From Lucinisca nassula (Eukaryota > Mollusca > Bivalvia > Lucinida > Lucinidae): a stretch of DNA of 64,000 nt. Positions 25,984 through 56,756 of the stretch are shown in pieces. The position numbers and the translations under genes were made by a program. How positions within the stretch are numbered: position 1 is the stretch's first letter; each line of letters begins with the position of its first letter. The notes beneath the pieces were generated by a model. It was not told the DNA's origin and did not search any database. It saw nothing but the letters and a program-made list of their open reading frames with translations. Location of the stretch: contig OY757017.1 of NCBI GenBank assembly GCA_963580285.1, forward strand, positions 113,183,245 to 113,247,244, read 5' to 3'.

Positions 25984-26498
25984 AATAGGCCAGTCAAAAT
26001 AGCATTGAACCTCAAACAAATTCCTTCAGAAGGGTTTTCACTATTTTCAGAATCAGTGAGGTGTCCTGACTTACAGGAAAAAAATCCCCCAAAATATTCC
26101 CTGGCAAAATTGATTTTTTTGGGGAAAATGTTCGAAATTTAAATAAAAATCGCCAAAAAACAGGAATTGAATTATAAAAATTTCATTACATTATATCAAA
26201 TTTATTTAAATAGCCAAAAATAAGCTAACTGTGGTCAAATAGTGATAAAAGAAGGTTTAGCTTGATATGTGAACAGAAAGCTGTCTTTTTTGGGGTAAAA
26301 ACTTGGAAATACATGTATTGACAAAAAACGCATGAAAATGGGAATAAATTTTTAAAAAGTTACTGGTGTGGATTCTTTTGGTGTAAAAAGTTATATATGT
26401 GTATAAGTTAACTTCAGGAAAAAAAAAATATAATTTTTATATGTTTAAAAAGTTCCATTTTTCAGGGTATGAAAATGCACATGTTTACATAAAACAAG

Positions 26499-29400
26499 AG
26501 GGCCCAATGGCCCTATATCGCTCACCTGTTTGGACCCCAGGTGCATGATTGGCAGGAATTATGTAGGTGACCACTTGCCGTCGCTACATGCCAAATATCT
26601 AAGCTCTGGGCCCTGTGGTTTCAAAGAAGAAGATTTTTTAATCTTTTTTCCATTATGAGTCTATGGTAGCTAAGGGGCCCCGGGGCGTGGCCCATTTGGA
26701 CCCCACGGGCATAATTGGCAGGATTTATGTAGGTGACCACTTGCCATTGCTACATGCTAAATATCTAAGCTCTGGGCCCTGTGGTTTCAGAGAAGAAGAT
26801 TTTTGAAGCTTTTTTTTTTTCCATTATTAGTCTATAGGAGCTAAGGGGCCCCGGGGCGTGGCCCTTTTGGACCCCAGGGGCATGATTGGCAGGAATTATA
26901 TAGGTGACCACTTCCCGTTGCTACGTACTATACATCTAAGCTCTGGGCGCTGTGATTTCAGAGAAGAAATTTTTTTAGCTTTTTTCCATAGGAGCTGAAG
27001 GGCCCTGGGGCGTGGCCCGTTTGGAACCCAGGGGCATGATTGGCAGGAATTATGTAGGTGACCATTTGCCGTTGCTACATGCTAATTATCTAAGCTCTGG
27101 GCTCTGTGGTTTCAGAGAAGAAGATTTTTTTAATCTTTTTTCCATTATGAGTCTATAGGAGCTAAAGGGCCCCGGGGCGTGGCCCGTTTTGACCCCAAGG
27201 GCATGATTGGCAGGAATTATGTAGGTGACCACTTGCCGTTGCTACATGCTAAATATCTAAGCTCTGGGCCCTGTGGTTTCCGAGAAGAAGATTTTTGAAG
27301 CTTTTTGTTCCATTATGAGTCTAGGGGAGCGAAGGGGCCCCGGGGTGTCGCCCATTTAGAACCCAGGGGCATAATTGGCAGCAATTATGTAGGTGACCAC
27401 TGGCCGTTGCTACATTCTAAATATCTAAGGTCTGGGCCCTGTGGTTTCAGAGAAGAAGATTTTTTAAGCTTTTTTTCCATTATGAGTCTTTGGGAGCAAA
27501 GGGGCCCCGGCATATGGCCCATTTGGAACCCAGGTGCATGATTGGCAGGAATTATGTAGGTGACCAATTGCCGTTGCTACATGCTAAATATCTAAGCTCT
27601 GGGCCCTGTGTATCAGAGAAGAAGATTTTTGAAGCTTTTTCCATTACGAGTCTATGGGAGCTAAGGGGCCCCGACGCATGGCCCATTTGGACCCCAGGGG
27701 CATGATTGGCAGGAATTATGTAGGTGACCACTTGCCGTTGCTACATGCTAAATATCTAAACTCTGGGCCCTGTGGTTTCAGAGAAGAAGATTTTTGAAGC
27801 TTTTTTTTCCCATTATGAGTCTATGGTAGCTAAGGGGCCCCGGGGCATGGCCCATTTGGACCTTAGGGGCATGATTGGCAGGATTTATGTAGGTGACCAC
27901 TTGCCGTTGCTACATGCCAAATACCTCAGCTCTGGGCCCTGTGGTTTCAGAGAAGAAGATTTTTTAAGCTTTTTTCCATTATGTGTCTGTAGGAGCTAAA
28001 GGGCCCCGGGGCGTTGCCCGTTTGGACCCAAGGGGCATGATTGGCAGGAATTATGTAGGTGACCACTTGTCGTTGCTACATGCTAAATATCTAAGCTCTG
28101 GGCTCTGTGGTTTCCGAGAAGAAGATTTTTGAAGCTTTTTGTTCCATTATGAGTCTATGGGAGCGAAGGGGCCCCGGGGCGTCGCCCGTTTGGAACCCAG
28201 GGGCATGATTGGCAGGAATTATGTAGGTGACCACTGTCCGTTGCTACATTCTAAATATCTAAGGTCTGGGCCCTGTGGTTTCAGAGAAGAAGATTTTTAG
28301 CTCACCAGAGCCGAAGGCTCCGGGGGAGCTTATAGGATAGGCAGTTGTCCGGCGTCGTCGTCGTCGTCGTTGTCGTTGTCGTCGTCGTCGTCGTCGTCTG
28401 ACGTCAACACTTTCAAACATCTTCTTCTCTGAAGCCACTGGACCGATTCAGCCCAAATTTTATCTGTAGCATCCTTGGGCTGGGGGATTGAAAGTTTGTG
28501 TTTTTTATGAAAATTGGCCCATTAGTTTGGTTGCTATAGCAACTTAGAGCTCCCATAGATTTATAATGGGGAAAATTGAAAAATGGCATTTATTGCCAAG
28601 CCACTGCAGATATTTTGACAAAACTTTCATAGAAATATTCCTTAGGCAATCTACTATCTGCCATATGATTTTAGGCCTACTGCTCATTTGTATTGGTTGC
28701 CATGGAAACCAAAATGAAAAAATAGAAAAAACAATACTTAAAAAATCATCTCCTCAGAAACCGTATGCTCTATGAGGCTGAAAGTTTATGGAAATATTCA
28801 CCATATTTGCCTTTACAGGTTTTGTGTTTTTTTTATGAAATTCGGCTCTTTAGTTTGGTTGCTATGGCAACTTAGATCTTCCATAGACTTATAATGGGGA
28901 AAATTGAAAAATGGCATTAACTACAAAGCCTTTGCAGATATTTTGACAAAACTTTCATAGAAATGTTCCTTTAGTAAACTTCTCTCAGCCATATGCTGTT
29001 ATGTCAACCTGGGGGTCCAGTAGGTTGTGCCGGGGCCATGCCCCGCCCCCAGTAATTCATAAAATAACTTATATCTCAGAAACCTTACAGATCCCCACCC
29101 CTAAACCATATATATTCTTGTTCCTATTGATAAGACGCATTCAGTGACACCAACCTGGAGGTCCTCCGGGATGTGCCGAGGCCATGCCCCACCCCCTCCA
29201 CTTCATAAAAGGCCCAATATCTCGGAAACCATTCAGATCCCCACCCCTGAACCCTATATACTCTTGTTCCTTATGATAAGAAGCATTCAGTGACATCAAA
29301 CTGGGGGTCCCCCGGGATGCGCCGGGGCCATGTCCCGCCCCTCCATTTCATAAAAGGCCCAATATCTCGGAAACCTTACAGATCCCCACCCCTAAACCAT

Positions 29401-32400
29401 ATATATTCTTGCTCCTTATGATAAGACGCATTCATTGACCCCAAATTGGGGGTCTTCCGGGGTGCGCCGGAGCCATGCCCCACCCCTTCACTTCACAAAA
29501 GGCCATATATCTCAGAAACTGTTCAGATCCCCACCCCTAAACCATATATGTTCTTGTTCATTATGATGAGACACATTCAGTGACACCAACCTGGGGGTCC
29601 CCAGGGATGTGCTGGGGCCATGCCCCATCCCCTCCATTTCATAATATCACAATATCTCGGAAACCTTACAGATCCCCACCCCTAAACCATATATATTCTT
29701 GTACCTTATGATAGGACACTTTCATTGACACCAACCTGGGGGTCTCCCTGGGCCTTGCCCCACCCCTGCACTTCACAAAAGGCCTTATATCTCAGAAACT
29801 GTTCAGAGCCCCACCCCTAAACCATATATATTCATCTTCCTTATGATAAGGCACATTCATTGACACCAGCTTGTGAGTCCCCGGGGCATGCCCGGGCCTT
29901 GCTCCACCGCTTGACTTCATTAAAAGCCACATATCTCAGAAATAGTTCAGATCCCCACCCCTAAACCATATATATTCTTGTTCCTTATGATAAGACTCAT
30001 TCAGTCACACCAACTTGGGGGTCTCTTTGTGCTGAGGCAATGTGCCCCGCCCTTCCACTTCATAAAAGGCCATATATTTCAGAAACCATTAAATCCCCAC
30101 CCCATATTCATATATGTTCTTGTTCCTTATTATTAGCACACCTACTGTAGATGTGTCCGCAGGGGCCAGTCCTCTCCTTTCCACTTCATGAAAGGATATC
30201 TTGGAAACCGTTCAGATTCCCACCCCTAAACCATATATATACTTGGTCCTTATGATGAGACACATTTAGGGATAACAATCTTGGGCTTTCCTGGGAACGA
30301 CAGGGCATGCTCCAACCCCTCCACTTATATCTCCAGCCATGCAGATCCCCACTGCTAAACCATATATATTCTTGTTCTTTGTGATAAGACACATTTAGTG
30401 ATACCAACCAGGGCTCCATTGGGTCCATGCCCCACCCCCTCTACTTCATAAAAGGCCTAATGTTTTATATACTGAGTCCACATGGATGCTCATTTGGATA
30501 TGGGGGTTCATTTGGCAGATTAAAATGATATCATGTTAAAATACATGGCTGCAATTTGGCAGTGCCCACCTGAGCTCTGGTGAGCATAGTGGCCCATGGG
30601 CCTCTTGTTTAAGCTTTTTTTCCATTATGAGTCTATGGGAGCTAAGAGGCCCCGGGGTGTGGCCAATTTGGACCCCAGGGGCATGATTGGCAGGAATTAT
30701 GTAGGTAACCACTTGCCGTTGCTACATGCCAAATATCTCAGCTCTGGGCTCTGTGGTTTCAGAGAAGATGTTTGAAGCTTTTTTTCCATTATGAGTCTAT
30801 AGGAGCTAAAAGGCCCCGGGACTGTGGCCCTTTTTGACCCCAGGGGGCATGATTGGCAGGAATTATGTAGGTGACCACTTGCCGTTGCTACATGCTAAAT
30901 ATCTAAGCTCTGGGCCCTGTGGTTTCCGAGAAGAAGATTTTCGAAGCTTTTTGTTCCATTATGAGTCTATGGGAGCGAAGGGGCCCCGGGGCGTCGCCCA
31001 TTTGGAACCCAGGGGCATGATTGGTAGGAATTATGTAGGTGACCACTGGCCGTTACTACATTCTAAATATCTAAGGTCTGGGCCCTGTGGTTTCAGAGAA
31101 GAAGATTTTTTAAGCTTTTTTTCCATTATGAGTCTTTGGGAGCAAAGGGGCCCCGGCACATGGCCCATTCGGAACCCAGGGGCATGATTGGCAGGAATTA
31201 TGTAGGTGACCAATTGCCGTTGCTACATGCTAAATATCTAAGCTCTGGGCCCTGTGTTTCAGAGAAGAAGATTTTTGAAGCTTTTTTCCATTACAAGTCT
31301 ATGGGAGCTAAGGGGCCCCGACGCATGGCCCATTTGGACCCCAGGGGCATGATTGGCAGGAATTATGTAGGTGACCACTGGCCGTTGCTACATTCTAAAT
31401 ATCTAAGGTCTGGGCCCTGTGGTTTCAGAGAAGAAGATTTTTTAAGCTTTTTTTCCATTATGAGTCTATGGGAGCTAAGAGGCCCCGGGGTGTGGCCAAT
31501 TTGGACCCCAGGATCATGATTGGCAGGAATTATGTAGGTAACCACTTGCCGTTGCTACATGCCAAATATCTCAGCTCTGGGCTCTGTGGTTTCAGAGAAG
31601 AAGATGTTTGAAGCTTTTTTCCATTATGAGTCTATAGGAGCTAAAAGGCCCCGGGGCGTGGCCCGTTTTGACCCCAGGGGCATGATTGGCAGGAATTATG
31701 TAGGTGACCACTGACCGTTGCTACATGCTTAATATCTAAGCTCTGGGCCCTGTGGTGTCCGAGAAGAAGATTTTCGAAGCTTCTTGTTCCATTATGAGTC
31801 TATGGGAGCGAAGGGGCCCCGGGGCGTCGCCCATTTGGAACCCAGGGGCATGATTGGCAGGAATTATGTAGGTGACCACTGGCCGTTACTACATTCTAAA
31901 TATCTAAGGTCTGGGCCCTGTGGTTTCAGAGAAGAAGATTTTTTAAGCTTTTTTTCACTTATGAGTCTATGGGAGCTAAGGGGCCCCGGGGTGTGGCCAA
32001 TTTTGACCCCAGGGGCATGATTGGCAGGAATTATGTAGGTAACCACTTGCCGTTGCTACATGCCAAATATCTCAGCTCTGGGCCCTGTGGTTTCAGAGAA
32101 GAAGATTTTTGAAGCTTTTTTCCATTATGAGTCTAAAGGAGATAAAGGGCCCCGGGGCGTGGCCCGTTTTGACCCCAGGGGCATGATTGGCAGGAATTAT
32201 ATAGGTGACCACTTGCTGTTGCTACATGCTAAATATCTAAGCTCTGGGCCCTGTGGTTTCTGAGAAGAAGATTTTTGAAGCTTTTTGTTCCATTATGAGT
32301 CTATGGGAACGAAGGGGCCCTGGGGTGTGGCCAATTCGGACCCCAGGGGCATGATTGGCAGGAATTATGTAGGTGACCACTGGCCGTTAATACATGCTTA

Positions 32401-32673
32401 ATATCTTAGCTCTGGGCCCTGTGGTTTCAGAGAAGAAGATATTTTAATTTTTTCCCATTGATAGTCTATGGGAGCTATATGTTGCCATGGCACCAGAATT
32501 CCAATCTGATCAGCCCAAAAACCTTATTGGCCATGGGGTATTAGAGATATACTTATTTGAAATTGTTTACGGACGGACGCACACACGCACGGACGCATGG
32601 ACACACGCACGACGGACGACGGGCAAAAAGTGATCACAAAAGCTCACTTTGTCACTACGTGACAGGTGAGCTA
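26499..32673 (-). mobile_element. HINE/pearl-like element 5 with 167-bp array
   Basis: Written on the + strand it starts CAAGAGGGCCCAATGGCCC (hairpin GGGCC-CAAT-GGCCC), then CGCTCACCTG. It ends with GTCACTACGTGACAGGTGAG, then CT. So it lies on the minus strand with its hairpin-CTCTTG end at the left. The body has about 22 units of ~167 bp (GCATGATTGGCAGGAATTAT, AGAGAAGAAGATTTTT). Element 6 interrupts it at 28299-30611. Confidence 0.75.
28299..30611 (+). mobile_element. HINE/pearl-like element 6, nested in element 5
   Basis: The 5' end AGCTCACCA plus hairpin GAGCC-GAA-GGCTC is the same as element 4. Its ~145-bp array (CAGATCCCCACCCCTAAACC at 29088, 29234, 29379, 29524, 29669 and onward) differs. 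The 3' module is GAGCTCTGGTGAGCATAG, hairpin GGCCCATGGGCC, TCTTG. Flanks GAAGATTTTT and TTTAAGCTTTTTTTCC re-form one 167-bp unit of element 5 when it is removed. A GTC-rich simple repeat lies at about 28345-28400. Confidence 0.8.
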
Positions 32674-32888
32674 AAAACACCCAAAATCTAGTATTTTCCG
32701 GTCAAGTAGAAATTACATTATAAAAATAAATTGTATGATGTCAAACTAATTTATATAGCCAGATGTACACTGACTATATCAAGTAGCTCTCAAAAATCCT
32801 TCAGCTTCGTGCCTGGACAGCAATTTGACCTGTTAAAGGCAGAAAATGTGAAATTTTGAAGAAAAAAAAAACGTGGAAAATAGGAATA
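32674..32888 (+). repeat. Continuation of the left inverted end of the 18.5-kb segment
   Basis: ATGATGTCAAACTAATTTAT, ATAGCCAGATGTACACTGAC and GAAATTTTGAAGAAAAA match, in order, the inverse of about 43860-44060. The element 5 insertion separates it from 26498. Confidence 0.65.
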
Positions 32889-33025
32889 TGTTTTGTTTTT
32901 GGTTTGGTCGCCATGAGGCGGGCAAACCGGGTCTAATGACCAGATTGTAACTGTTCCATGGAGGGGCACGTGACGCGATCAACCAATCAGCTTTAACATT
33001 AAACATCAACTCAAACAAACAAATA
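32889..33025 (-). repeat. SINE-like fragment with AAACAAACAAAT end
   Basis: TTTGGTCGCCATGAGGCGGG and AACATCAACTCAAACAAACA resemble a short retroposon with the same kind of tail as family S. The head is not recognised. Confidence 0.4.
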
Positions 33026-33446
33026 ACGATGATGCAATACTATACTGCAGAAACAGGCCGAAAAGCAAGCGTTTAAACTCCAACAATAAATATCTTAAGG
33101 GAAATGGATACACCTGGCCGGTGTGGCAATTAGTCTACCATTTTTACCGTATTTCGAAACACACCTATACAAATACATTGTCATTTTTTGGCCAAAGAAA
33201 CAGAAATTTTAAAAAGAAAAATTGGAATATTTGCCTTTTTTGCTCAAAACATAGATTGCGGGGAGTCGACAGAAACGCCTCAACGAGGCGATTCTATCGA
33301 GTACCCACAATCTAGTGTCTCAGAGCATGAATATGGAAATTAATGTATACCCCTGCAAACCCGAGCTTTACTATATAAAAGTGTAGATTATATTTTCTTG
33401 TCCTTTGGGATCATTGATTCCATTGTGGAATTTTGAAAATATCTGA

Positions 33447-33492
33447 GGGTCACTGATGAGGCCCAATTGACTGAAACTAGCTAGTCTGGTCC
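33447..33492 (+). ncRNA. Hammerhead ribozyme, type I, unit 1
   Basis: Stem I GGGTCA (33447-33452) pairs with TGGTCC (33487-33492) using G-U pairs. The core CTGATGA (33453-33459) and GAAA (33473-33476) are intact. Stem III CTAGCTAG (33477-33484) has no loop, and the site is GTC with predicted cleavage after 33486. Stem II (GGCC, CAATT, GACT) has one mismatch and a wobble, so activity may be reduced. Confidence 0.82.
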
Positions 33493-33706
33493 AGAAAACA
33501 TGTACACTCCATATTTTTCAGTTAGGTGGTGTATTCCTTGCTTCCAAAGGATAGCCCTTTTATAGAACATATTTAACTTCACTACAACTGGTGTGTGGGA
33601 ATGTGTGTGGCGGTAAAACGTCTCCCTGCCCTACATCATAGTGTAGATTATATTTTCTTGTCCTTTGGGATCTTTGATTCCATTGTGGAATTTTGAAAAT
33701 ATCTTA

Positions 33707-33752
33707 GGGTCAATGATGATGCCTAATTGGCCGAAACTAGCTAGTCTGGCCC
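33707..33752 (+). ncRNA. Hammerhead ribozyme, unit 2, core mutated
   Basis: The same layout as unit 1, 260 bp downstream, with GAAAC, CTAGCTAG and GTC (cleavage point after 33746) intact. However, the core reads ATGATGA (33713-33719) instead of CTGATGA. Loss of the conserved C should inactivate it. Confidence 0.75.
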
Positions 33753-34229
33753 AGAAAACATGTGAACACCATATTTTTCAGTTCTGTGGTGTATTCCTTG
33801 CTTCCAAAGGATAACCCTTTCATAGAACATATCAAAGGGGATCACAATTCTATAGGCGTGATTTCGGGACGGAGATACAACTTTAAGGACCTTATGGTTG
33901 CTACTCTGTTGGCTCTGTCCAACTGAAAAAGGGGTCTACTCTAACAGGGAAGAATTTGCTCCTCAAGGGGTCTACTCTGAAAGGGAAGAATTTGCTCCCA
34001 AGGAGCAAATTCTTTCCTTTAAGAGTATACCCCTTAGACATATCCAAAGAGAAACTACTTTTGCAGGAGTAGCCCCACCCCCTTAAAGCGTATCTATTTC
34101 CCTTATGGGAAACTTATAACAGCCGCAGTCATTTTCGCAAAGTTGACGTCTTGTAATGCCATTATGGAGTAAGTCCATGGGGCCATGGAAACGAAAAACA
34201 ACAGAACATAACAACTACTACTCACAAAG

Positions 34230-34537
34230 TGTGGCTGGCTGCGGTAGCTCAGTCGGATGCAATCTGACTGGTGATAAGGAAGACTCGGGTTCGATACCTA
34301 CCGGGGTCGGCAACATTCTTTCGTGGAGATTGATCATGAAATCTTTTCGATGGTCATTCTCTCCCTTCCGCTGATTCACGAAGGGCAGGGGTCAGTTTTT
34401 GGCGACAGAATGTGCACTGAACTGGTAAATCGCTTACGGATAAGCCTGCTCAGGAAAAGCGTGGATAGGTACACTGACAGGCCCAAACATGACCCAAATC
34501 AGTGTTGACTGGGCCGTTAAATACAAATAAACAAAAC
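34230..34537 (+). repeat. tRNA-derived SINE family A, full length
   Basis: A box TAGCTCAGTCGG (34245-34256) and B box GGTTCGATACC (34288-34298). The body contains TAAGCCTGCTCAGGAAAAGC, shared with family S, and CAGTGTTGACTGGGCCGTTA. The tail is AATACAAATAAACAAA. Confidence 0.83.
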
Positions 34538-34689
34538 TTGCAAAGTTTACTTCACACAGATAGGAACAGATTTATATATTCTGAACATCTTTCGGTGCGC
34601 TGATAGCTCTAATAATACGTATATGTAAATGTTGGAAAGACAAAGAACGTTATTCTTCCTCATTTATAAAGATCGCTGGGTGTAACGGG

Positions 34690-34901
34690 CCTCCTTGGCC
34701 TAGTGGATAAGAGTGCTGACTTTTAATCATTAGATCTCTCAACGCTGTAGGTTTGAGCATGGCTCAGGTCACATAATGAGAAGTTCTGCAACGGAAGGTT
34801 AAGAGGTTTTTCATCGGGTACTCCAGTTTTCGAACACCTCTGATTAACGATCAGCTTGATGTGAGTGAAATAATCTTGAAAGGATCGTAAAACCAAAAAT
34901 A
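34690..34901 (+). repeat. tRNA-derived SINE family B
   Basis: A box TTGGCCTAGTGG (34695-34706), B-box-like GGTTTGAGC at about 34750, body TTCATCGGGTACTCCAG and an AAAACCAAAAATAAA tail. It immediately precedes the left end of the element at 34902. Confidence 0.78.
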
Positions 34902-37900
34902 AACTAGAAATGTGTCAATACAACACAAATGCCCCCGCCCGGGAGCCTACCTCACCCTCCCCCCTCCCCCAACCCCCTCCTTAGGTCATTGGCATAGGTT
35001 GGTGTATGGCTGATTAAACCTTGGAAAATTAACTATCAACATACCAAATAGGAACTCAATCCACCAAATGGTTTGGAAAATATGAGCTCTTACCAACGTT
35101 AGCATTCAACATTTCTAAGTCTGCATCCTTGACCTTAAGGTCATGGGGCACGGTGGGGTTATGGCTGAATGAAACTTTTGACCTGTATCTATCATCATTC
35201 CAAATATGTAGCAAATCCATCACATGGTTCAGGAAATATGAAATCTCAAAAAATATAATATAAAAAAATTCTAAGTCTGTGACCTTGACCTTGAGGTAAT
35301 GGGTGGGGGTATGGCTCAATGAAACTTTGGACCTGCAACTATTGTCATACCAAATATGAAGCAAATCCATTATAAAGTTTGGAAAATATAAGCTATTATC
35401 ATACTTAAATTTGAAAATTTCTATGTCTGCGACCTTGACCTTGAAATCATAGGCATGGGTGGGGGTATTACTGAATAAGAGGGCCTAGAGGGCCCTGAAT
35501 CGCTCACCTGAGAATTAGTGTCTCCAATACATTCTAGGCCCAAGGGCTATAATTTGAACAAACTTGGTAATGGTCCACTAGATGAAGCTTCATACCAAAT
35601 ATCAAAGACCTGGGCCGTCTGGTTTCAGACAAGAAGATTTTTAAAGGTTTTCCCTATACATGTATAAGCCTATGAAAAACCAAAGGGTCCCGGAGTGGGG
35701 GCATTTTTGGCCCCAGGGCTATAATTTGAACAATCTTGAAACAGGTCCACTAGATGAAGCTTCACACCAAATACCAAAGATCTGGGCCTTGCGGATTCAG
35801 AGAAGATTTTTAAAGATTTTCCATGTATAAGCCTACGTAAAACCAAAGGCGCCAGGGTTGGGGCATTTTTGGCCCCAGGGTTATAATTTTAACAATCTTG
35901 GTAGAGGTCTAGTAGTTGAAGCTTCATATCAAATAGCATAGAGCAGGGCCTTGTGGTATCAGAAGAAGAATTTTAAATATGTTCCCTAATTAAGCATATG
36001 AAAAACCAAAGGGTCCCAGCGTAGGGGCATTTTTGGTCCTAGGGCTATAATTTGAACAATCTTGATATAGGTCCAATAGATGAAGCTACACACCAAATAT
36101 CTAAGACCTTGGCCTTGCAGTTTCTGAGAAGTTGCTTTTAAGATTTTCCCTATATAAGACTATGTAAAACCAAAGGCCCCCGGGGCGGGGACATTTTTGG
36201 CCCCAGGGCTATAATTTGAACAATCTTGGTAGAGGACCATTAGATTAAGCTTCACACCAAATATCAATGACCTGGGCCTTGCGGTTTCAGAGAAGAAAGT
36301 TTTAAAGAGTTCCCCTACACAAGCTAAGGTAAAACCAAAGGCCCCCTGGGCGGGGGCATTTTTGGCCCCAGGGCTTTAATTTGAACAATCTTGGTAGAGG
36401 TCCACTAGGTGAAGCTTCATACCAAATATCAAAAACCTGGGCCTTGTGGTTTCAGAGAAAAAGATTTTTAAAGTTTTCCCTAAGCCTATGAAAAACCAAA
36501 GCGTCCAAGAGTGGGGCCATTTTCTGCCCCAGGGCTATAATTTGTACAATCTTGAAAGAGGTCCACTAGATGAAGCTTCACACCAAATATCAAAGATCTG
36601 GGCCTTGCGAATTCAGAGAAGAAGATTTTTAAAGATTTTCCCTGTATAAGCCTATCTAAAACCAAAGGCCCCCGGGGCGGGGGCATTTTTGGCCCCAATG
36701 CTATAATTTGAACAATCTTAGTAAAGGTCCACCAGGTAAAAGCTTCACACCAAATATTAAAGACCTGGGCCTTGTGGTTTCAGAGAAGAAGATTTTTTTA
36801 TGATTTTCCCTATATAAGCCTATGTAAAACATAGGCATTTTGGCCCCCAGGGCTATAATTTGAACAATCTTGGTAGGGGTCCACTAGATGAAGCTTCACA
36901 CAAAATATCAAAGATCTGGGCCTTGCGGTTTCAGAGAAGAAGATTTTTAAAATAATTTCCCTATATAAGCCTATGTAAAAACAAAGGCCCCCGGGTCGGG
37001 GGCATTTTTGGCCCCAAGGCTATAATTTGAACAATCTTAGTAGAGGTCCACCAGGTAAAGCTTCACACAAAATATAAAAGAGGTGGGTTTTGTGGTTTCA
37101 GAGAAGAAGATTTTTTAATGATTTTCCCTATATAAGCCTATGTAAAACCATAGGCCCCCGGGGCTGGGGCATTTTGGCCCCCAGGGCTATAATTTGAACA
37201 ATCTTGGTAGAGGTCCACTAGATGAAGCTTCACACCAAATATCAAAGATCTGGGCCTTGCGGTTTCAGAGAAGAAGATTTTTAGAGATTTTCCCTGTATA
37301 AGCCTATGTAAAACCAAAGCCCCCCCCCCTCCTCCCCCCCCCCCCCCCCGAGCGGGGGCATTTTGGCCCCAAGGCTATAATTTGAACAATCTTAGTAGAG
37401 GTCCACCAGGTAAAGCTTCAACCAAATATAAATAAAGACCTGGGCCTTGTGGTTTCAGAGAAGAAAATTTTTAATGATTTTCTCTATATAAGCCTATGTA
37501 AAACCAAAGGCCCCCGGGGCGGGGGCATTTTGGCCCCCAGGTCTTTAATTTGAACAATCTTGGTAGAGGTCCACTAGATGAGGCTTCATACCAAATATCG
37601 AAGACCTGGGCCTTGCGGTTTCAGAGAAGATTTTTAAAGTTTTCATTTAAAAAATCTATTTTTAGCTCCTGTGACCCAGATGTGCAATGGACCAGAACCA
37701 TTTGAACAATTTTGAAAGGGGACCACCTAAGGATCATTGCTGTGAAATTTGGTCAAAATCCGATCAGTGGTTTAGAAGGAGATGTCATTTGAAGAAAAAG
37801 TTTACGCACACACGCACGCACTGACGACGGACGACGGACGAAAAGTGATCACAAAAGCTCACTTTGTCACTACGTAACACGTGAGCTAATAAAACTTTGG

Positions 37901-38655
37901 ACCTGCATCTATCATCAAACCAAATATGATCCAAATGAATCATAAAAGTTCATGTTCAACGTGGTACAAATACCTTAACCTGAGTCTTAAACATTAAAAA
38001 ATGTCCAAGTCTGTGACCTTGACCTTGTGGGGGTATTGCTGAATAAACCTTTGGGCCTATATGTATTATCATACCGGTTATGAACTAAATTCATTGCACG
38101 GTTTGGAAAATATGAACTCAAGTTCTACCTGGTACAAATACCTTAACCTGGGTCTTAAACATTAAAAATTTCAAAGTCAATGACCTTGACCTTGAGGTCA
38201 TTGGTATTGCTGAATATAACTTTGGACCTATATATATCATCATACTAAATATAAACCAAATCCAATGAATGGTTTTGAAAATATGAGCTCTAGTTCTACC
38301 TGGTACAAATACCTTAACCTGGGTCTTAAACGTTAGAAATTTCTAAGTTTGTGACCTTGACCTTGAGGTCACGGATGTGGGTGTGGGTGGGGGCATTGCT
38401 GAATAAAACTTTGGACCTATATCTATCATCATTCTAAATATAAACCAAATCTATTGCATGGTTTGGAAAATATGAGCTAAAGTTCTACCTTGTACAAAAA
38501 ACTTAACCCGAGTCTAACAGGATTACGTACGTACGTACACACTTTCGTACAGAAGGACGTACATTCGGACGCAAGTGCGCACGTACGCACGTACCCACGG
38601 ACGCACGTACGGAAAACTCTATGCCCCCGGCATCATCCGATGCGGGGGCATTAAA
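34902..38655 (+). mobile_element. Element T, AGGTCA-rich array, interrupted by element 7
   Basis: The 5' end is CTAGAAATGTGTCAATACAA, then CACAAATGCCCCCGCCC. The body has ~150-170-bp units with GACCTTGACCTTGAGGTCAT, GGTACAAATACCTTAACCTG and CATGGTTTGGAAAATATGA. An ACGTACGTACG-rich stretch (38520-38610) precedes the 3' hairpin TATGCCCCCGGCATCATCCG with its inverse. The copy at 44724-45981 is in the opposite orientation and uninterrupted, and confirms both ends. Confidence 0.75.
35475..37888 (-). mobile_element. HINE/pearl-like element 7, nested in element T
   Basis: On the + strand it begins AAGAGGGCCTAGAGGGCCC, then GAATCGCTCACCTGAG, and ends with GTCACTACGTAACACGTGAG, then CT. About 13 units of ~166 bp (CTATAATTTGAACAATCTTG, GAAGCTTCACACCAAATATC) are the reverse of element 4's array. 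Flanks CTGAATAA and AATAAAACTTTGGACC give a clean GAATAAAACTTTGG when joined. A C-rich run lies at 37319-37350. Confidence 0.78.
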
Positions 38656-48340: not shown

Positions 48341-48552
48341 TTAACCCTTCTCTTGCTGAATATTCAGATTAGCCACACCCATTTCTGCCTTTGAACCAAT
48401 CAGATTACTTTATTATATTTATTCCTACAAATTCGTAAATTGAATGTCAAACAGTGTAGATCCTGATCAGATGGCTTCTTCAGAAGCCATCTGATCTGGA
48501 TCTACACTGTTTCCAAAGATAGGGTTGTCGTAAACAGCATGATAAGAGTTAA
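48341..48552. repeat. TTAA-MITE type 1
   Basis: TTAA-flanked, ends CCCTTCTCTTGCTG / CAGCATGATAAGAG, with the full GATCAGATGGCTTCTTCAGA centre. Confidence 0.83.
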
Positions 48553-48579
48553 CTGTTAAAGGTTTGTCAATTTTTTGGA

Positions 48580-48955
48580 TTAGGCTGAGTAACTTTGCAT
48601 ATATAATTTTGATCCCCTCAAACCCAACTTTTATACAGTAAAACTGAGGTTTTCTGGGTTTTACATTATTTTTCCTAGTTCTGCCCAAAACTAGATTTAG
48701 GGTACTTGTTGAGAACCCATACTCTATCTTACGAATAGAACTAAGAAAAATAATATAGTGTTTTGTCTGAAAAAATGTCATTTTTTTATTATTATTTTAT
48801 TTTTGGGGGTGGGGGGGGGGGGATGGGGATGGGGTGGTAAAAAAATTCAATGTATTTGAAAGACGTGTTTTCGTAATGAAGTTTAAAGGCCCAGTCAGCA
48901 CTAGATCATTCAGTACCGGTCTGTTTACCTTCCACACTTTCTTGGGCAGGCTTAT
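48580..48955. repeat. MITE C remnant, then SINE family A fragment
   Basis: ATATAATTTTGATCCCCTCA, CCCAACTTTTATACAGTAAA and GTATTTGAAAGACGTGTTTTCG outline MITE C in reverse, with a G-rich run near 48805. From 48890, GGCCCAGTCAGCACTAGATC and CTTTCTTGGGCAGGCTTATG are the SINE body on the minus strand. Confidence 0.5.
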
Positions 48956-49223
48956 GCAGCTGGTGTTGTGCCGTGTGGCGGCCGTAAAACGTCTCCCCGT
49001 ACATCAACCATAGTGCAGTTTATATTTTACTTTTGGTCCTTTGAGATCAGCGTGAATATTCTGAGAAATCAGAAATAAATTATTGGTTTAGACTTATATT
49101 CTAGACATGTTTTTAATTATTTGGACCCCATTTTGATTTATATCAGTCTTTGAATCGACTGCCTATTTGAAATTCGCAAAATTGCAGTATGTTTCCTCTG
49201 GCTTTCTTTGCCGGATCATTACA

Positions 49224-49269
49224 GGGTCACTGATGAGGCTTTATTAGCCGAAACTACGTAGTATGACCC
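49224..49269 (+). ncRNA. Hammerhead ribozyme, type I, unit 1
   Basis: Stem I GGGTCA/TGACCC is perfect. CTGATGA is at 49230-49236. Stem II GGCT/AGCC has loop TTATT (49237-49249). GAAA is at 49250-49253, stem III CTACGTAG at 49254-49261, and the site is GTA with predicted cleavage after 49263. The very short stem III is typical of metazoan forms, which are expected to work best as dimers. Confidence 0.88.
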
Positions 49270-49607
49270 ATCTTCTTTCTTATGAATGTTTTCATTGCTC
49301 TTAAAGGAACTTATTTTTGATTTTTATTTGCCTTCACTGCAGCTGGTGTTGTGCCGTGTGGCGGCCGTAAAACGTCTCCCCGTACATCAACCATAGTGCA
49401 GTTTATATTTTACTTTTGGTCCTTTGAGATCAGCGTGAATATTCTGAGAAATCAGAAATAAATTATTGGTTTAGACTTATATTGTAGACATGTTTTTTAA
49501 TTATTTGGACCCCATTTTGATTTATATCAGTCTTTGAATCGACTGCCTATTGGAAATTCGCAAAATTGCAGTATGTTTCCTCTGGCTTTCTTTGCCGGAT
49601 CATTACA

Positions 49608-49653
49608 GGGTCACTGATGAGGCTTTATTAGCCGAAACTACGTAGTATGACCC
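49608..49653 (+). ncRNA. Hammerhead ribozyme, type I, unit 2
   Basis: Identical to unit 1: GGGTCA 49608-49613, CTGATGA 49614-49620, GGCT-TTATT-AGCC 49621-49633, GAAA 49634-49637, CTACGTAG 49638-49645, predicted cleavage after 49647, TGACCC 49648-49653. The two sites are 384 nt apart. Confidence 0.88.
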
Positions 49654-49711
49654 ATCTTCTTTCTTATGAATGTTTTCATTGCTCTTAAAGGATCTTATTT
49701 TTGATTTTTAT

Positions 49712-49980
49712 TATAAATACATAAAGGTTTAACAAGTACAGTTCAACATCTTTCACCAGAACTGCCAACTGCCCTTCTTGGATTGGCAGAAGAGACTGGG
49801 AATGACAATAGACAAGATTCATGAACCATATTTACCCATAAAATGTTTACATAATTTCACCATTCAAGAACCAATTGAACATTGTGCCAATTTGTTTAAC
49901 CCATATAAGCTCTAAAATATTACTCAACCAATCCCATCTGCAGTTTTCAATAATACAGTTAAATCCCTACATTAAGATCA
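49712..49980. other. Unrecognised sequence
   Basis: Begins with an AT-rich stretch after the retrozyme. No recognised feature. Confidence 0.35.
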
Positions 49981-50037
49981 CCTTTGGGACTGTTCAAAAG
50001 TGGTCTTTAAGACCACTTTTGAACAGTCCCAAAGGTG
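49981..50037. repeat. 56-bp near-perfect palindrome
   Basis: CCTTTGGGACTGTTCAAAAG, then TGGTCTTT, is followed at once by the exact inverse ending GTCCCAAAGG. A looser inverted repeat (ATATGCTTC... and AAGCATAT) lies to the right at 50100-50120. Probably a MITE core. Confidence 0.75.
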
Positions 50038-50144
50038 GCCTTCCACTAGAACATTCTGAAAGTGAAATACTCAAAGAAATTGTAGCTCAAACCACCTAAA
50101 TATGCTTCTTTTAAAAGCATATTTTTTCTTAATTCTAGGTGGTC

Positions 50145-50357
50145 TTAACCCTTATCTTGCTGTTCACGACAACGCCTATCTTTGCAAACAGTGTAGATCC
50201 AGATCAGATGGCTTCTGACGAAGCCATCTGATCAGGATCTACATTGTTTTCCATTCAGATTGTGAATTTGTTGCAATAACTTGCATCAAGTAATCCGATT
50301 GGTTGATAATCGGTAGTGGGAGTGGCATATATGAATATTCAGCAAGATAAGGGTTAA
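50145..50357. repeat. TTAA-MITE type 1, full length
   Basis: TTAA at both ends, CCCTTATCTTGCTG / CAGCAAGATAAGGG termini, and central GATCAGATGGCTTCTGACGA with inverse. Confidence 0.88.
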
Positions 50358-50558: not shown

Positions 50559-52140
50559 AGCTCGCCTGTACGAAGTACATGGAGAGCTTTTGTTGTCACC
50601 TTCTTTGTGCACGTGTGCGTGTGCGTTCCCGTCACACTGCGTTAAAGTTTTTCAAATGCTTATACCTCAACAGTCACTCATCACAGAGCACTCATATTTG
50701 GAACTTAAGTACCTGGGAGGGTCTTCTGACGGGGTGCGGCTAGGGTTCAAAATCTAGAACACCTCTGTAAAAATGTGTTAAAGTTTTTATCACAAAGGAT
50801 TCATATTTTACAACTTGGATATCGGGCGTGTCTTCTGAGATTCCAAGACAACACACCCCTGGGTTCATACCTGCGAGGAAGGATGGGGTGGGGCTATGGG
50901 GTCAAAATCTAGGACACCTTTGTGATTTGTTATATACGTTTCCATTATGCTAACGAGTTATAAACACAATTGGTTATATATCAGCCAACCATGTGACATT
51001 GGTTCAAGTATAAAAGGGTGAAGGTCATGGTGCCTACATTTCACGGTCCAGTGATTTTGCCTTATATCTTGAAGACTATTTTGGAGAAATGTCAAACCTG
51101 GGATATTAGTACCATGTGACCCCCATGATTGACCTCAAAATATATCTAGGTCACTGTGACCTATATTTCATGGTCCAGTGATTTTGCCTTATATCTTGAA
51201 GACTATTTGTTGAAGAATGTCATACCTGTGATATTAGTTTGATGTGACCCCATGCTTGACCTCAAACTATATCTAGGTCACTGTGACCTTTATTTCATGG
51301 TCCAGTGATTTTGCCTTATATATTGAAGACTATTTGTTGGAGAAATGTCATACCTGGGATATTAGTACCATGTGACTCCCATGATTGACCTCAAACTATA
51401 TCTAGGTCACTGTGACCTATATTACATGGTCAAGTGATTTTGCCTTATATCGTGAAGACTATTTGTTGAAGAAATGTCATACCTGTGATATTAGTATGAT
51501 GTGACCCCATGATTGACCTCAAAATATATCTAGGTCACTGTGACCTATATTTCATGGTTCAGTGATTTTGCCTATTATCTTGAATACTATTTGATGGAGA
51601 AATGTCATACCTGGATTATTAGTTCCATGTGTCCCCATGATTGACCTCAAAATATATCTAGGTCATTGTGATCTATATTTCATGGTTCATTGATTTTTCC
51701 TATTATCTTGAATAATATTTTGATATCGAAATGTTATATCTGGGATATTACTTCAATGCAACCAGGTGATTGACCTCAAAATATATCTAGGTCCGTATGA
51801 CCTATATTACATGGTTCATTGACTTTGACTTATATCTTGAATACTATTGGCTGGAGAAAATTTCATATCTGAATTACCAATTCCATGTGACCAGATGATT
51901 TACATAGAAATATATCTAGGTCAGTGTGACATATTTTCATGGTTCAATGATTAGCCTTATAACTCAGACACAATTTGATTCTGAAATGTAATATCTGGAA
52001 TATATGTTCCATGTGACCTGATGATTGACCTCAAAATGTATGTGGGTGAATATGATCTATATTTCATGGTTCAATAGCTTTACCTTATATCTTGAAGGCG
52101 CGAAACAGGCGAGCTACGCTGTCATGTGACAGCTCTTGTT
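50559..52140 (+). mobile_element. HINE/pearl-like element 9, relative of element 2
   Basis: The 5' AGCTCGCCTGTACGAAGTAC hairpin and the 3' module ACAGGCGAGCTAC, hairpin GCTGTCA-TG-TGACAGC, TCTTG. The inside has two worn units of the 170/184-bp type, then about eight of the 128-bp type (from 51030). The 3' hairpin stem differs from element 2 yet still pairs. Confidence 0.78.
51030..52080 (+). repeat. 128-bp minisatellite with perfect ERE palindromes
   Basis: Units at ~128 bp. AGGTCACTGTGACCT is present exactly at 51148-51162, 51275-51289, 51404-51418 and 51532-51546. Later units are diverged. Confidence 0.88.
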
Positions 52141-52267
52141 CCAGTTTGTATTGGTCATAAATATCAAAATGCCAAACGATATGACGTTTTCCTGCTCTGG
52201 GCAGAAGAGAATGTTACTTTTCCTGTTCTTATCTTAAATTTTAAAATTCCAACACTTTCATAATTTT

Positions 52268-52555
52268 GTTTGAATTGAGATTTTACGTCCCCGTTAACAC
52301 TATTCAGGTCATTTTGGAGACGTTGCCTTCAATTTTGTGGGGCTTTTACCAATGACATCTCAAACCCTGCCGCCCAAACAAACCAAAAGGGTTTATATGT
52401 AGGGACGGTCCAACTTGCACGTCCTTGCCTGGGCAGGCTGAGACCCTCTTAGCGGTTCAGCAGTACTCCTGTGTGGTTGGTTTCAGCCCTGCGTGGAAGT
52501 ATCATGCAGCCCAAATCCATTTCTTCAAGCCCCAATAGGCGGGGACTTAACAGTT
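52268..52555 (-). repeat. SINE-like family S
   Basis: Left tail TTTGAATTGAGATTTTACGT, then GTCCCCGTTAACAC, TTGCCTGGGCAGGCTGAGAC and GCCCCAATAGGCGGGG at the right. Confidence 0.7.
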
Positions 52556-52775
52556 CCAGCGTTAAAGAAATAATGAGTAAGACTCTTAGGAACCGCAACT
52601 GCTGCCTTCAGTTATCTACCTTGTAAATTATGCATGTGCATGTACTATTGAATTTATTAAACGAGCAAAAGGAATAAAACGTGAGGCTTCGACAGCATTT
52701 TATCTCTTCTCAACGAGTTTAATAAATATGATAAAACATAAGCACGAATGCAAGCTCCTATTTATCATATGACAT

Positions 52776-55700
52776 TTATCACGTGACAGGTGAGCTTTTG
52801 TGATCACATTTTGTCCGTGGTGCGTGCGTCCGTCCGTGCGTCCGTAAACAATTTCAAATAAGTATATCTCTAATACCCCTTGGCCAATCTTGATCAAATT
52901 TCATGTGAAGCATCATCGGGTAGGGGGAAAGGCTGCATAAGGTTTTTGGGCTGATCAGATTGGAATTCCGGTTGCCATGACAACATATAGCTCCCATAGA
53001 CTTATAATGGGAAAAATTTAAAAAATCTTCTTCTCTGAAACCACAGGGCCCAGAGCTTAGATATTTAGCTAGTAACAATGTTAAGTGGTCACCTACATAA
53101 ATCCTACCAATCATGCCCCTGGGGTCCAAATCGACCACACCCTGGGTCCCCTTAGCTCTTTTGGCTCATTTTGGAAAAAAAGGCTTCAAAAATCTTCTTC
53201 TCTGAAACCACAGGGCGCAGAGCTTAGATATTTAGCATGTAGCAACGGCAAGTGGTCACCTACACAATTCCTGCCAATCATTCCCCTGGGTTCCAAATGG
53301 GCCCCCAGCCCGGGGCCTCTTAGCTCCTATAGACTCATAATGGGAAAAAAAGCTTCAAAAATCTTCTTCACTGAAACCACAGGGCCCAGAGCTTAGATAT
53401 TTAGCATGTAGCAACGGCAAGTGGTCACCTACATAATTCCTGCCAATCATGCCCCTGGGGTCCAAACGAGCTGTGGCCCCTTAGCTCCTACAGGCTCATA
53501 ATGGAAAAAAGCTTCAAAAAGCTTCTTCTCTGAAACCACAGGGCCCAGAGCTTAGATATTTAGATTGTAACAACAGCAAGTGGACACCTACATAAATCCT
53601 GCCAATCATGCCCCTGGGGTCCAAACGGGCCACGCGCCGGGGCCCCTTAGCACCCATAGACTCATAATGGAAAAAAAGCTTCAAAAATCTTCTTTTCTAA
53701 AACCACAGGGTCTAGAGCTTAGATATTTAACATCTAGCAATGGCAAGTGGTCACCTTCATAACTCCTGCCAATCATGTCCCTGGGTTCCAAATGGGCCAC
53801 GCCCCGGGGCCCCTTTGCTCCCATTGACTCATAATGGAAAAAAAAAGCTTCAACATTTTTTTTCTCTGCAACCACAGGGCCCAGAGCTTAGATATTTAGC
53901 ATGTATCAACGGCAAGTGGTCACCTACATTATTCCTGCCAATCATTCCCCTAGGGTCCAAACGGGCCACGCCCCGGGGCCCCTTAGCTCCTGTAGACTCA
54001 TAATGGAAAAAAAAGCTTAAACAATCTTCTTCTCTGAAACCACAGGGCCCAAGAGCTTAGATATTTAGCATGTAGCAATGGCATGTGGTCACCTACATAA
54101 ATCCTGCCAATAATGTCCCTTGGGTCCAAATGGGCCACGCCCCGGGGCCCCTTATCTCCCATAGACTCATAATGGAAAAAAAATCAAAAATCTTTTTTTC
54201 TGAAACCACAGGGCCCAGAGCTGAGATATTTAGCATATGGCAATGACAAGTGGTCACCTACATAAATCCTGCCAATCATGCCCCTGGGGTCCAAATGGGA
54301 CACACCCTTGCCCAACCCCCCCCCCCCCCCCCCTTAGCTCCCATAGACTCAAAATGGAAAAAAAGCTTCAAAAATCTTCTTCTCTGAAACCACAGGGCCC
54401 AGAGCTTAGATAGTTAGCTTGTAACAATGTCAAGTGGTCAACTACATAAATGCTGCCAATCATGTCCCTGGGGTCAAATTTGCCACACCCTGGGGCCCCT
54501 TAGCCTCCATAGACCTATATTGGAAAAAAAGCTTCAAAAATCTTCTTCTCTGAAACCACAACGCCCAGAGCTTAGATATTTAGCATGTAGCAACGGCAAG
54601 TCTTCACCTACATAAATCCTGCCAATCATGCCCCTGGGGTCCAAATTGGCCACACCTCGCGGCCCCTTAGCTCCCATAGACTCATAATGGGAAAAAAGCT
54701 TCACAAATCTTCTTCTCTGAAACCACAGCGCCCAGAGCTTAGATATTTAGCATGTAGCAAAGCCAAGTGGGCATCTAAATAAATCCTGTCAATCTTGCCC
54801 CTGGGGTTCAACTGGGCCACTCTCCGGGGCCCCTTAGCACCCATACTCATAATGGAAAAAGCTTCAAAACTCTTCTTCTCTGAAACCACAGGGCCCAGAG
54901 CTTAGATATTTAGATTGTAACAATGTCAAGTGGTCACCTACATAAATGCTGCCAATCATGTCCCTGGGGTCCAAATTGGCTACACCCTGGGGCCCCTTAG
55001 CTTCCATTGACTTTTAATGAAAAAAAAAGAGCTTCAAAAATCTTCTTCTCTGAAACCACAGGGCCCAGAGCTAAGATATTTAGCATGTAGCAACGGCAAG
55101 TGGTCACCTACATAATTCCTGCCAATCATGCCCCTGGGGTCCAAATGGGCCACGTCCCGGGGCCTCTTAGCTCCCATAAACTCATAATGGTAAAAAGTTT
55201 CAAAATCTTCTCTGAAACAGTGAAGCACAGAACTTAGATATTTAGTATCTAGCTACATAAAATAGTCACCTACATAAATCCTGCTAACCCTGCCGCTGGG
55301 GTCAAAATTGGCAACGCCCGTGCTCAACAGCTCCTTTAGACTTATAATGGAAGAAACGTCAAAAATCTTCTTCTATGAAACCATAAGGCCCAGAGCTTAG
55401 ATATTTAGTTTGTAGCAACGTCAAGTGGTCACCGACATATATCCTGCCAATTATGCCCCTTGGATCCAAATTGGCCACACCCAAGGGCTTTTTAGCTCCC
55501 ATAGACTTACAATTGGAAAAACTAAATAAATCTTCTTCTCTGAAACCACAGGGCCTAGAGCTTAAATATGTAGCATGTAGCAACGTCAAGTGGTCACCTA
55601 CATAAATCCTGCCAACCATGCTCTTGGGGTCAAAATTGGCCACACCCATGGGCTCATTTGCTCCCCTAGACTTATAATGGAAAAAAACCTTCAAAAATCT

Positions 55701-56756
55701 TCTCCTCTGAAACCATAAGTCCCAGAGGTTAGATCTTTAGTATGTAGCCACATGAAATGGTCACCTTAATAAATACTGCCAAAAATGCCCCTTGGGTCAA
55801 AATTTGCCACGCCCATGGGCACATTACTTACCATAGACTTGAAATGTACAAATTCAAATGAAAACAAACTTCAAAAATCTTCTTATCTGAAAACATAAGG
55901 GCGAGAGCTTCGGTATTTAGCATGTTGCAACGTCGAGTGGTCGCCCACATGAATCCTGCCAATCATGCCCCTAGGGTCTAAATTAGCCAAATATTGTGAC
56001 CCCGTAACTCCAATAAACTAATAATGTAATAATGGAAAATAAGCTTCGAAAATCTTGTTTTCTGAAACCATGAAGTACATACCTTAGATATTTAGTATAT
56101 AGCAACGTAAAATGGTCACCCACATAAATCATGCCAACCATGCCCTTTGGGTCAAAATTTGTCATGCCCCAGGGCTCATTAGCACCTATAGACTTATACT
56201 GGAAAAAACTTCAAAAATCTTCTTCCCCGAAACCATGAGGCCCAGAGCTTAAATATTTAGTGTGTAGCAATGTCAAGTGGTGTGGTCTCCTACATAAATC
56301 ATGCCAACCATGCCCCTGGAGTCTGAATTGGACATTCGCCAGGGCGCCTTAACTCCAATAGACTTATAATGGATCAACTTAAAAAATCTTCTTTTACGAA
56401 ACCACAGGACCCCGATTTTTTATTGATTTGAGGTTTAAGATCCCCGTCAACACTGTGTAGGTCATTTTGGAGACTTTGCTTCCAGATTTGTGGGACTTTT
56501 ACCCTACATTGAGATGAAATGACATCTTAAGCTCTGCTGCCCAATGAAACCAATAGGGTTTAAATGCACCATTTTTCCTGGGCAGGCTTAGAGCCTCTAA
56601 GCTGTTTACCAGTACTCATCTGCGTTCCGTTTCAGCTCTGCATGGAAGCACCATGTAGCCCAATCTATTTCTTCAAGTCCCGATGGGTATTCTAAACATC
56701 ACTCATGCTTTTCTGGTACACAGGCGAGCGCTACATGGCCAGTTGGCCCTCTTGTT
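52776..56756 (+). mobile_element. HINE/pearl-like element 10 with 167-bp array
   Basis: The 5' end is short: it starts inside the usual hairpin (CACGTGACAGGTGAGCTTTT), then GATCACATTTTGTCCG. About 20 units of ~167 bp (CACCTACATAAATCCTGCCA, TCTTCTTCTCTGAAACCACA) are the inverse orientation of element 5's unit. The 3' module is CACAGGCGAGCGCTACAT, hairpin GGCCA-GT-TGGCC, CTCTTG. A family S copy is inserted near the 3' end. A C run lies at 54308-54334. Confidence 0.77.
56425..56690 (-). repeat. SINE-like family S inside element 10
   Basis: TTTGAGGTTTAAGATCCCCG, GTCATTTTGGAGACTTTGCT and CTGGGCAGGCTTAGAGCCTC, ending CTTCAAGTCCCGATGGG. Confidence 0.7.

Follow-up and report, generated by a model that had tools for sequence, protein, structure and literature searches.

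The 64,000-nt stretch of Lucinisca nassula DNA analyzed here (the window) carries a head-to-tail pair of hammerhead-bearing units, which raises the question of what the pair is and how it came to be inserted. The features of the locus are listed in Table 1, with unit positions numbered from the first base 3' of the predicted hammerhead cut. Tandem Repeats Finder, in agreement with direct reading, gave a period of 384, 2.0 copies, and a 98% match, which bears out the tandem ~384-bp units of a preliminary description of this DNA; the 1.97 units of 384 bp are cut short on the 5' side. The two units were mismatched at 4 of 375 compared columns, and this supports the recent insertion proposed in that description. 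The unit of this family (family 1) was found to be non-coding, with a longest stop-free frame of 46 amino acids and a GC content of 0.38 (<50%). No Pol III boxes were found in it by simple patterns, and the family-1 copies were plain tandem units without LTRs. Elsewhere in the window, tandem-repeat arrays with periods of ~129 to 190 bp fill much of positions 24433 to 38515 and 51022 to 56412 (Tandem Repeats Finder). Long palindromic hairpins, possibly fold-back elements, lie on either side of the retrozyme (48446 to 48515, 49970 to 50046, and 50184 to 50253), and a similar hairpin adjoins two Penelope-like element (PLE) loci, L079 and L094.

Table 1. Features of the window related to the two retrozyme families (window coordinates).
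Feature	Position	Strand	Remarks
Retrozyme insertion, 1.97 head-to-tail units	48955..49712	+	Unit position 75 -> 65
Hammerhead 1	49224..49269	+	Direct reading and core/stem scan
Hammerhead 2	49608..49653	+	Direct reading and core/stem scan
Predicted cut 1	49263..49264 (after 49263)	+	Direct reading
Predicted cut 2	49647..49648 (after 49647)	+	Direct reading
Loopless palindromic stem III ACTACGTAGT, hammerhead 1	49253..49262	+	Reading and folding; identical at 49637-49646
Fixed 3' end, putative reverse-transcription start	49709..49714 (unit about 62-67)	+	64/73 copies end at unit 62-71
Conserved hairpin 3' of the putative start, candidate recognition element	49337..49401 (unit about 74-138)	+	Inside the array
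Family-2 retrozyme, 260-bp unit, about 1.75 units, degraded	33380..33832	+	Passenger in a larger repeat
Family-2 hammerhead 1	33447..33492	+	One stem II pair broken
Family-2 hammerhead 2	33707..33752	+	Core mutated, CTGATGA -> ATGATGA

Each family-1 hammerhead consists of stem I (GGGTCA/TGACCC, 6 bp), CTGATGA, stem II (GGCT/AGCC) closed by the loop TTATT, GAAA, and the palindrome ACTACGTAGT, which provides a stem III of 5 bp, if A15.1-U16.1 is counted, without a loop. The predicted cuts follow GTA, are exactly 384 nt apart, and fall where the preliminary description had placed them. Scanning both strands of the window for CTGANGA cores with pairing stems returned only these two hammerheads. 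The minimum-energy fold of a lone 46-nt core was a non-hammerhead structure at -12.5 kcal/mol (-11.3 for the hammerhead without stem III), and that of two strands was a double hammerhead at -39.3 kcal/mol. With a palindromic stem III that lacks a loop, cooperation of two units is predicted, and the folding points to joint cleavage by the hammerheads of neighboring units. The two had been described as complete type I hammerheads; the type I topology (with stem I open), the core, and stems I and II stand in each unit, but self-sufficiency does not, given the loopless palindromic stem III and the two-strand fold. The covariance-model check suggested in the same description was run, and Rfam accepted neither core, which that description had named as a refuting outcome, with 0 hammerhead matches in the whole window at the gathering threshold. 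At relaxed limits over positions 48400 to 50300, the sole hammerhead match was to type III (RF00008) at 20.3 bits (E 0.38; threshold 48.5); the miRNA matches that outscored it were long palindromes outside the retrozyme and were set aside. We attribute the rejection to the loopless stem III, and the functional reading therefore relies on the comparison of hammerheads from two families given below. Divergence was 2.0% in the hammerhead and 2.6% in the rest of the unit after one exact unit per array was dropped, which is no strong contrast, and the estimate is biased because most loci (L009 to L078) were chosen by exact hammerhead.

Searching the 2.93-Gb genome with the 46-nt hammerhead and ≤3 mismatches gave 15,299 forward and 15,192 reverse matches (30,491 in all, which are units, not insertions). 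The reversed pattern gave 0, so the hammerhead is not a chance match. The family-1 hammerhead had 0 matches in IMG/VR contigs and 0 in GTDB genomes, a literal search of papers for the conserved block gave 0, and no published description of the family was found in the literature searched, which supports the earlier suggestion that it may be new. Metazoan non-LTR retrozymes are described as tandem repeats of 150 to 450 bp with type I hammerheads, GC <50%, no LTR, PBS, PPT, or ORF, and thousands of dispersed copies, and the retrozyme of Mytilus galloprovincialis as about 350 to 390 bp (PMC7229834). The window element resembles them, Mytilus being compared by description, in its short tandem units (384 bp), type I hammerhead topology, low GC, 30,491 hammerhead matches, and dispersed copies of 105 to 1983 nt. 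Its Rfam score apart, assignment to the animal non-LTR retrozymes, a known kind of element, is well supported by these sequence features. It differs in its stem III, a loopless palindrome; monomeric action is reported for most invertebrate hammerheads (PMC7761336).

Copy ends were then determined for 73 elements delimited in 67 loci from L001 to L078, leaving out hits <100 nt, hits ≤60 nt from a locus end, and repeated junctions; as L009 to L078 were chosen by exact hammerhead, copies too short to contain one were missed. The 3' end lay at unit 62 to 71 in 64 of the 73 copies (at 64 to 69 in 59 of these). The other nine ended at unit 30, 55, 75, 77, 85, 169 (two copies), 273, and 357 and count against a fixed-start model; the two ending at 169 (L019 and L055) are older and family-2-like. 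The 64 copies with the common 3' end were 105 to 1983 nt long (median 404), 34 of them >383 nt. Their 5' ends were scattered over all twelve 32-nt bins, with 2 to 11 per bin, and a single one lay ≤2 nt from the cut. The dimer in the window is one of this range of copy lengths and no special form. These genomic data are best read as products of an enzyme that copied an RNA circle and began at a set point inside it, which would give fixed 3' ends and scattered 5' ends. The pattern of copy ends is what is new here, and no published report of such an insertion signature in animal retrozymes was found in mainly openly readable literature, taken without supplements. The copies might instead be traces left in the genome by a viroid-like RNA with RNA-to-RNA replication and only occasional reverse transcription, as the unit is circle-sized, non-coding, and ribozyme-bearing and RNA-to-RNA copying has been raised as a possibility (PMC7229834), but the very large number of copies with a single insertion signature, an opposite strand without a ribozyme in the window scan, and the empty IMG/VR search make this very unlikely.

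Paralogous empty sites were present among the fetched sequences for 24 of the 73 elements. With letters matching at both junctions counted, 23 of the 24 comparisons gave flank overlaps between -3 and +9 nt, which corresponds to near-blunt insertion. The +28 nt overlap of L035 was rejected as a target duplication since it is ambiguous and sits in a tandem repeat. Insertion was often between GGYTT and A (GGYTT/A) at these sites, with GGYT at the junction in 10 of the 24 copies by eye. In the 8 nt of left flank nearest the element, GGYT occurred in 13 and GGY in 24 of the 64 copies, compared with means of 2.5 (maximum 4) and 8.0 (maximum 13), respectively, across 11 windows farther out. Strict flank matches of ≥4 nt occurred in 10 of 64 copies against about 1.9 expected, and the examined flanks held no convincing long target duplication except in L076. 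This copy has a 16-nt flank match with ~24 nt of extra sequence between the match and the 3' end of the element. For the window's own copy, the closest empty site was only 78 to 79% identical, so its junction is less certain. A target-site duplication of >4 bp is listed for retrozymes as a feature "when present" (PMC7229834), which does not make it a requirement for membership; here, 23 of 24 insertions were near-blunt. Near-blunt junctions with short shared letters, and the filler of ~24 nt in one copy, could also arise if cDNA were made apart from the target, from a fixed primer on the circle (a small RNA or self-priming) and then end-joined, an explanation rendered quite improbable by the GGY preference at the left junction (24 of 64 vs 8.0), which suggests a sequence-selective nick. 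Also counted against it, no primer-binding site was identified, the scan having covered Pol III boxes.

A second retrozyme in the window (Table 1), to which the preliminary description made no reference, is older than the first. The search for this family gave 3,485 first-look candidates genome-wide, of which 40 were scored. In eight loci (L096 to L103, the window among them), the family-2 copy sits inside a larger repeat with common flanks, and these were therefore counted as a single insertion event. The 3' ends of family 2 were at unit 260 to 4 in 4 of 4 independent copies (the L096 to L103 event, L019, L027, and L085), and in the alignment of the two families this end falls at about position 64 of family 1, the homologous base. 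The distance from cut to end was 86 to 90 nt in family 2 vs mostly 64 to 69 nt in family 1, so the position of the end seems to depend on the block 3' of it rather than on the ribozyme. This block (family-1 unit 62 to 168) was 75% identical between the families and folds as a long hairpin in which 3 of 21 pairs were compensatory among ten hand-chosen sequences. Family-1 variability was lowest, at 0.9 to 1.4%, over unit 67 to 138 vs 2.9 to 4.8% at 187 to 354. Between the best family-2 hammerhead (L027) and family 1, 7 of the 46 positions differed, with the core unchanged. The changes comprised compensatory replacements at pairs 17/23 (U-A to C-G) and 34/35 (C-G to G-C, the palindrome being kept), one U-A to U-G, one loop base, and the cleavage-site base (A to C). 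No double changes were found inside either family among 30 (family 1) and 11 (family 2) distinct hammerheads, and the stem II pair 16/24 was broken in 5 of the 11 distinct family-2 hammerheads, which counts against the functional reading.

The homogeneity of arrays was measured on 109 unit segments taken from the 64 elements with the common 3' end, at a mean distance to the consensus of 2.3%. Divergence was 1.7% within arrays (72 pairs) vs 4.4% between arrays (5,811 pairs). In the 26 arrays with ≥2 segments, 117 non-consensus sites were common to all units and 257 to some only, and shuffling the units gave 6.1 all-unit sites, with a maximum of 21 in 500 shuffles. Rare variants (present in ≤2 arrays) were common to all units at 57 sites vs a shuffled mean of 1.2 (maximum of 10 in 300), and the four segments of the L003 array had zero differences. 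This is strong evidence that each array derives from one template sequence. Read directly, this would mean that a single RNA circle was copied in rolling-circle fashion; a linear transcript made from an array that was homogeneous to begin with could also be the template and would leave the same picture. A LINE-type reverse transcriptase might accordingly mobilize the retrozyme from linear read-through transcripts of tandem copies, since homogeneous arrays could yield multimeric transcripts, LINEs likewise show a fixed 3' end, truncation on the 5' side, and target priming, and the target of the retrozyme is T-rich. We regard this as unlikely, as neither a tail of poly(A) or simple repeats nor a long target duplication was present in the examined flanks, and the 3' end falls inside the unit. 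Tandem units and array-specific homogeneity are likewise traits of ordinary satellite DNA spread by unequal crossing-over, in which the hammerhead would be a fossil. Against it are the dispersed short copies that share a 3' end and are often below one unit in length, the near-blunt insertions into other repeats, and the compensatory hammerhead changes between families, which leave it a very small probability.

As the retrozyme encodes no reverse transcriptase or GIY-YIG domain (longest stop-free frame, 46 amino acids), it is not itself a PLE. PLEs have been proposed as retrozyme mobilizers on other grounds (PMC7229834, PMC7761336). The purified Penelope-like enzyme of the green anole starts inside its RNA in vitro, 111 to 118 nt into the ORF, with the hammerhead cut at +26 (PMC11167929), which by our arithmetic is 85 to 92 nt past the cut. 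This enzyme favors AT-rich targets, its genomic ends agree with the in vitro starts, and in vitro insertion was unchanged with ribozyme mutants (PMC11167929), so hammerhead cutting is not needed for it. PLEs are abundant in the 2.93-Gb genome, with at least 138 GIY-YIG matches from 150 scored of 746 candidates, and two loci with tandem units had RVT_1 and GIY-YIG ORFs of 764 and 820 amino acids. In the tandem PLEs L079 and L080, the unit junctions were nearly identical (99.9% over 838 nt and 99.7% over 637 nt). Both have an additional ORF upstream (492 and 431 amino acids) with no match in Pfam, and both have a (TA)n 3' end. The L089/L095 family carries a canonical minimal hammerhead core, CTGATGAGTTATAAACGAAACCGGTT, ~50 nt before its (TA)n end, and other PLE families had hammerhead remnants only (by eye). 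In eight loci, the (TA)n end lay 50 to 54 nt past the cut, genuine or remnant, in two families and 93 to 94 nt past it in a third; the 3' end of L083/L086 was unreadable because both sit in a longer shared repeat. In five further loci (L087, L088, L090, L091, and L093), the GIY-YIG frames were followed by C2H2-like zinc fingers and not by a PLE 3' end (by eye, with a Pfam scan of L087 only).

A fixed internal 3' end past the cut, as expected for mobilization by a Penelope-like enzyme, is found at 62 to 71 nt in the retrozyme. The PLE families examined end at (TA)n and the retrozyme insertions do not, which counts against the partnership, and comparison of the retrozyme with 17 fetched GIY-YIG loci revealed no homology (best E among the matches listed, 1.6). 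A shared 3' end was also sought by comparing nine PLE ends with the retrozyme end, which ranked first among 383 windows for three of them (L080, L092, and L094) and was outscored by 22 to 73 windows for the other six. Of 5,000 dinucleotide shuffles of the PLE end, the score was reached by 100 (L080), 472 (L092), 87 (L094), 1,745 (L079), and 3,061 (L089). The likeness was judged weak, and a shared end was rejected. The enzyme of the retrozyme is most likely Penelope-like, by analogy, because one such enzyme initiates internally downstream of a hammerhead cut in vitro; the partner is suggested by the shared signature and by co-occurrence.

Taken together, the element in the window is probably a young, non-autonomous, non-coding retrozyme copy made from an RNA circle with a fixed internal start, most likely by a PLE-type enzyme. 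Tandem units would be read through as RNA, and neighboring hammerheads, paired via their palindromic stems III, are predicted to cut as a double hammerhead and free units of 383 to 384 nt. The freed units would be closed into circles, for which host ligation has been proposed (PMC7229834), and such a circle should cut poorly, as it would have a single loopless hammerhead. Primed at the target DNA, the reverse transcriptase would start 62 to 71 nt 3' of the cut, just 5' of the conserved hairpin, and copy round the circle for anything from part of a lap to some five laps. The copy would then join nearly blunt, often at GGYTT/A, as seen at the 24 empty paralogous sites.

Among known systems, amphibian retrozymes (newt and axolotl) have a weak stem III and reportedly need dimeric hammerheads (PMC7229834), and minimal PLE hammerheads are reported to cleave through two units jointly (PMC7229834, PMC7761336). 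The amphibian elements, compared by description, are like the present one in the weak stem III and in two-unit action, which is predicted here. PLEs with minimal hammerheads (PMC11167929; L089/L095) share with the retrozyme a hammerhead upstream of an internal start and tandem units, and those of L089/L095 also share a short palindromic stem III; PLEs differ in encoding a reverse transcriptase with GIY-YIG, in ending at (TA)n here, and in lacking sequence homology to the retrozyme. Plant LTR retrozymes, with type III hammerheads, LTRs, PBS/PPT, and 4-bp duplications (PMC7761336), are likewise hammerhead-bearing and non-autonomous and move via RNA circles, as the present element may. Here, in contrast, stem I is open and the units are plain tandem repeats, with no type III hammerhead in an LTR. 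The schistosome W-elements and alpha elements, compared by description, are similar satellite- or SINE-like hammerhead repeats with signs of mobility, and the available part of their description mentions no fixed 3' end (PMC8490949).

To the metazoan non-LTR retrozymes, this analysis adds a fixed 3' end, a target site, and a hairpin. More tentatively, animal retrozymes could be minimal PLE satellites that copy only the initiation region, that is, the hammerhead, the internal start, and the hairpin 3' of the start. With the hairpin in that position, only a circle or a multimer would be copied in full, and the copy would regain the hairpin by going round. If true, this would explain both circle formation and tandem genomic copies with one fixed end. 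The copies offer one start base common to two diverged families, a target preference, a candidate recognition hairpin, and evidence for a single template, which make the retrozyme enzyme and its template RNA directly testable.
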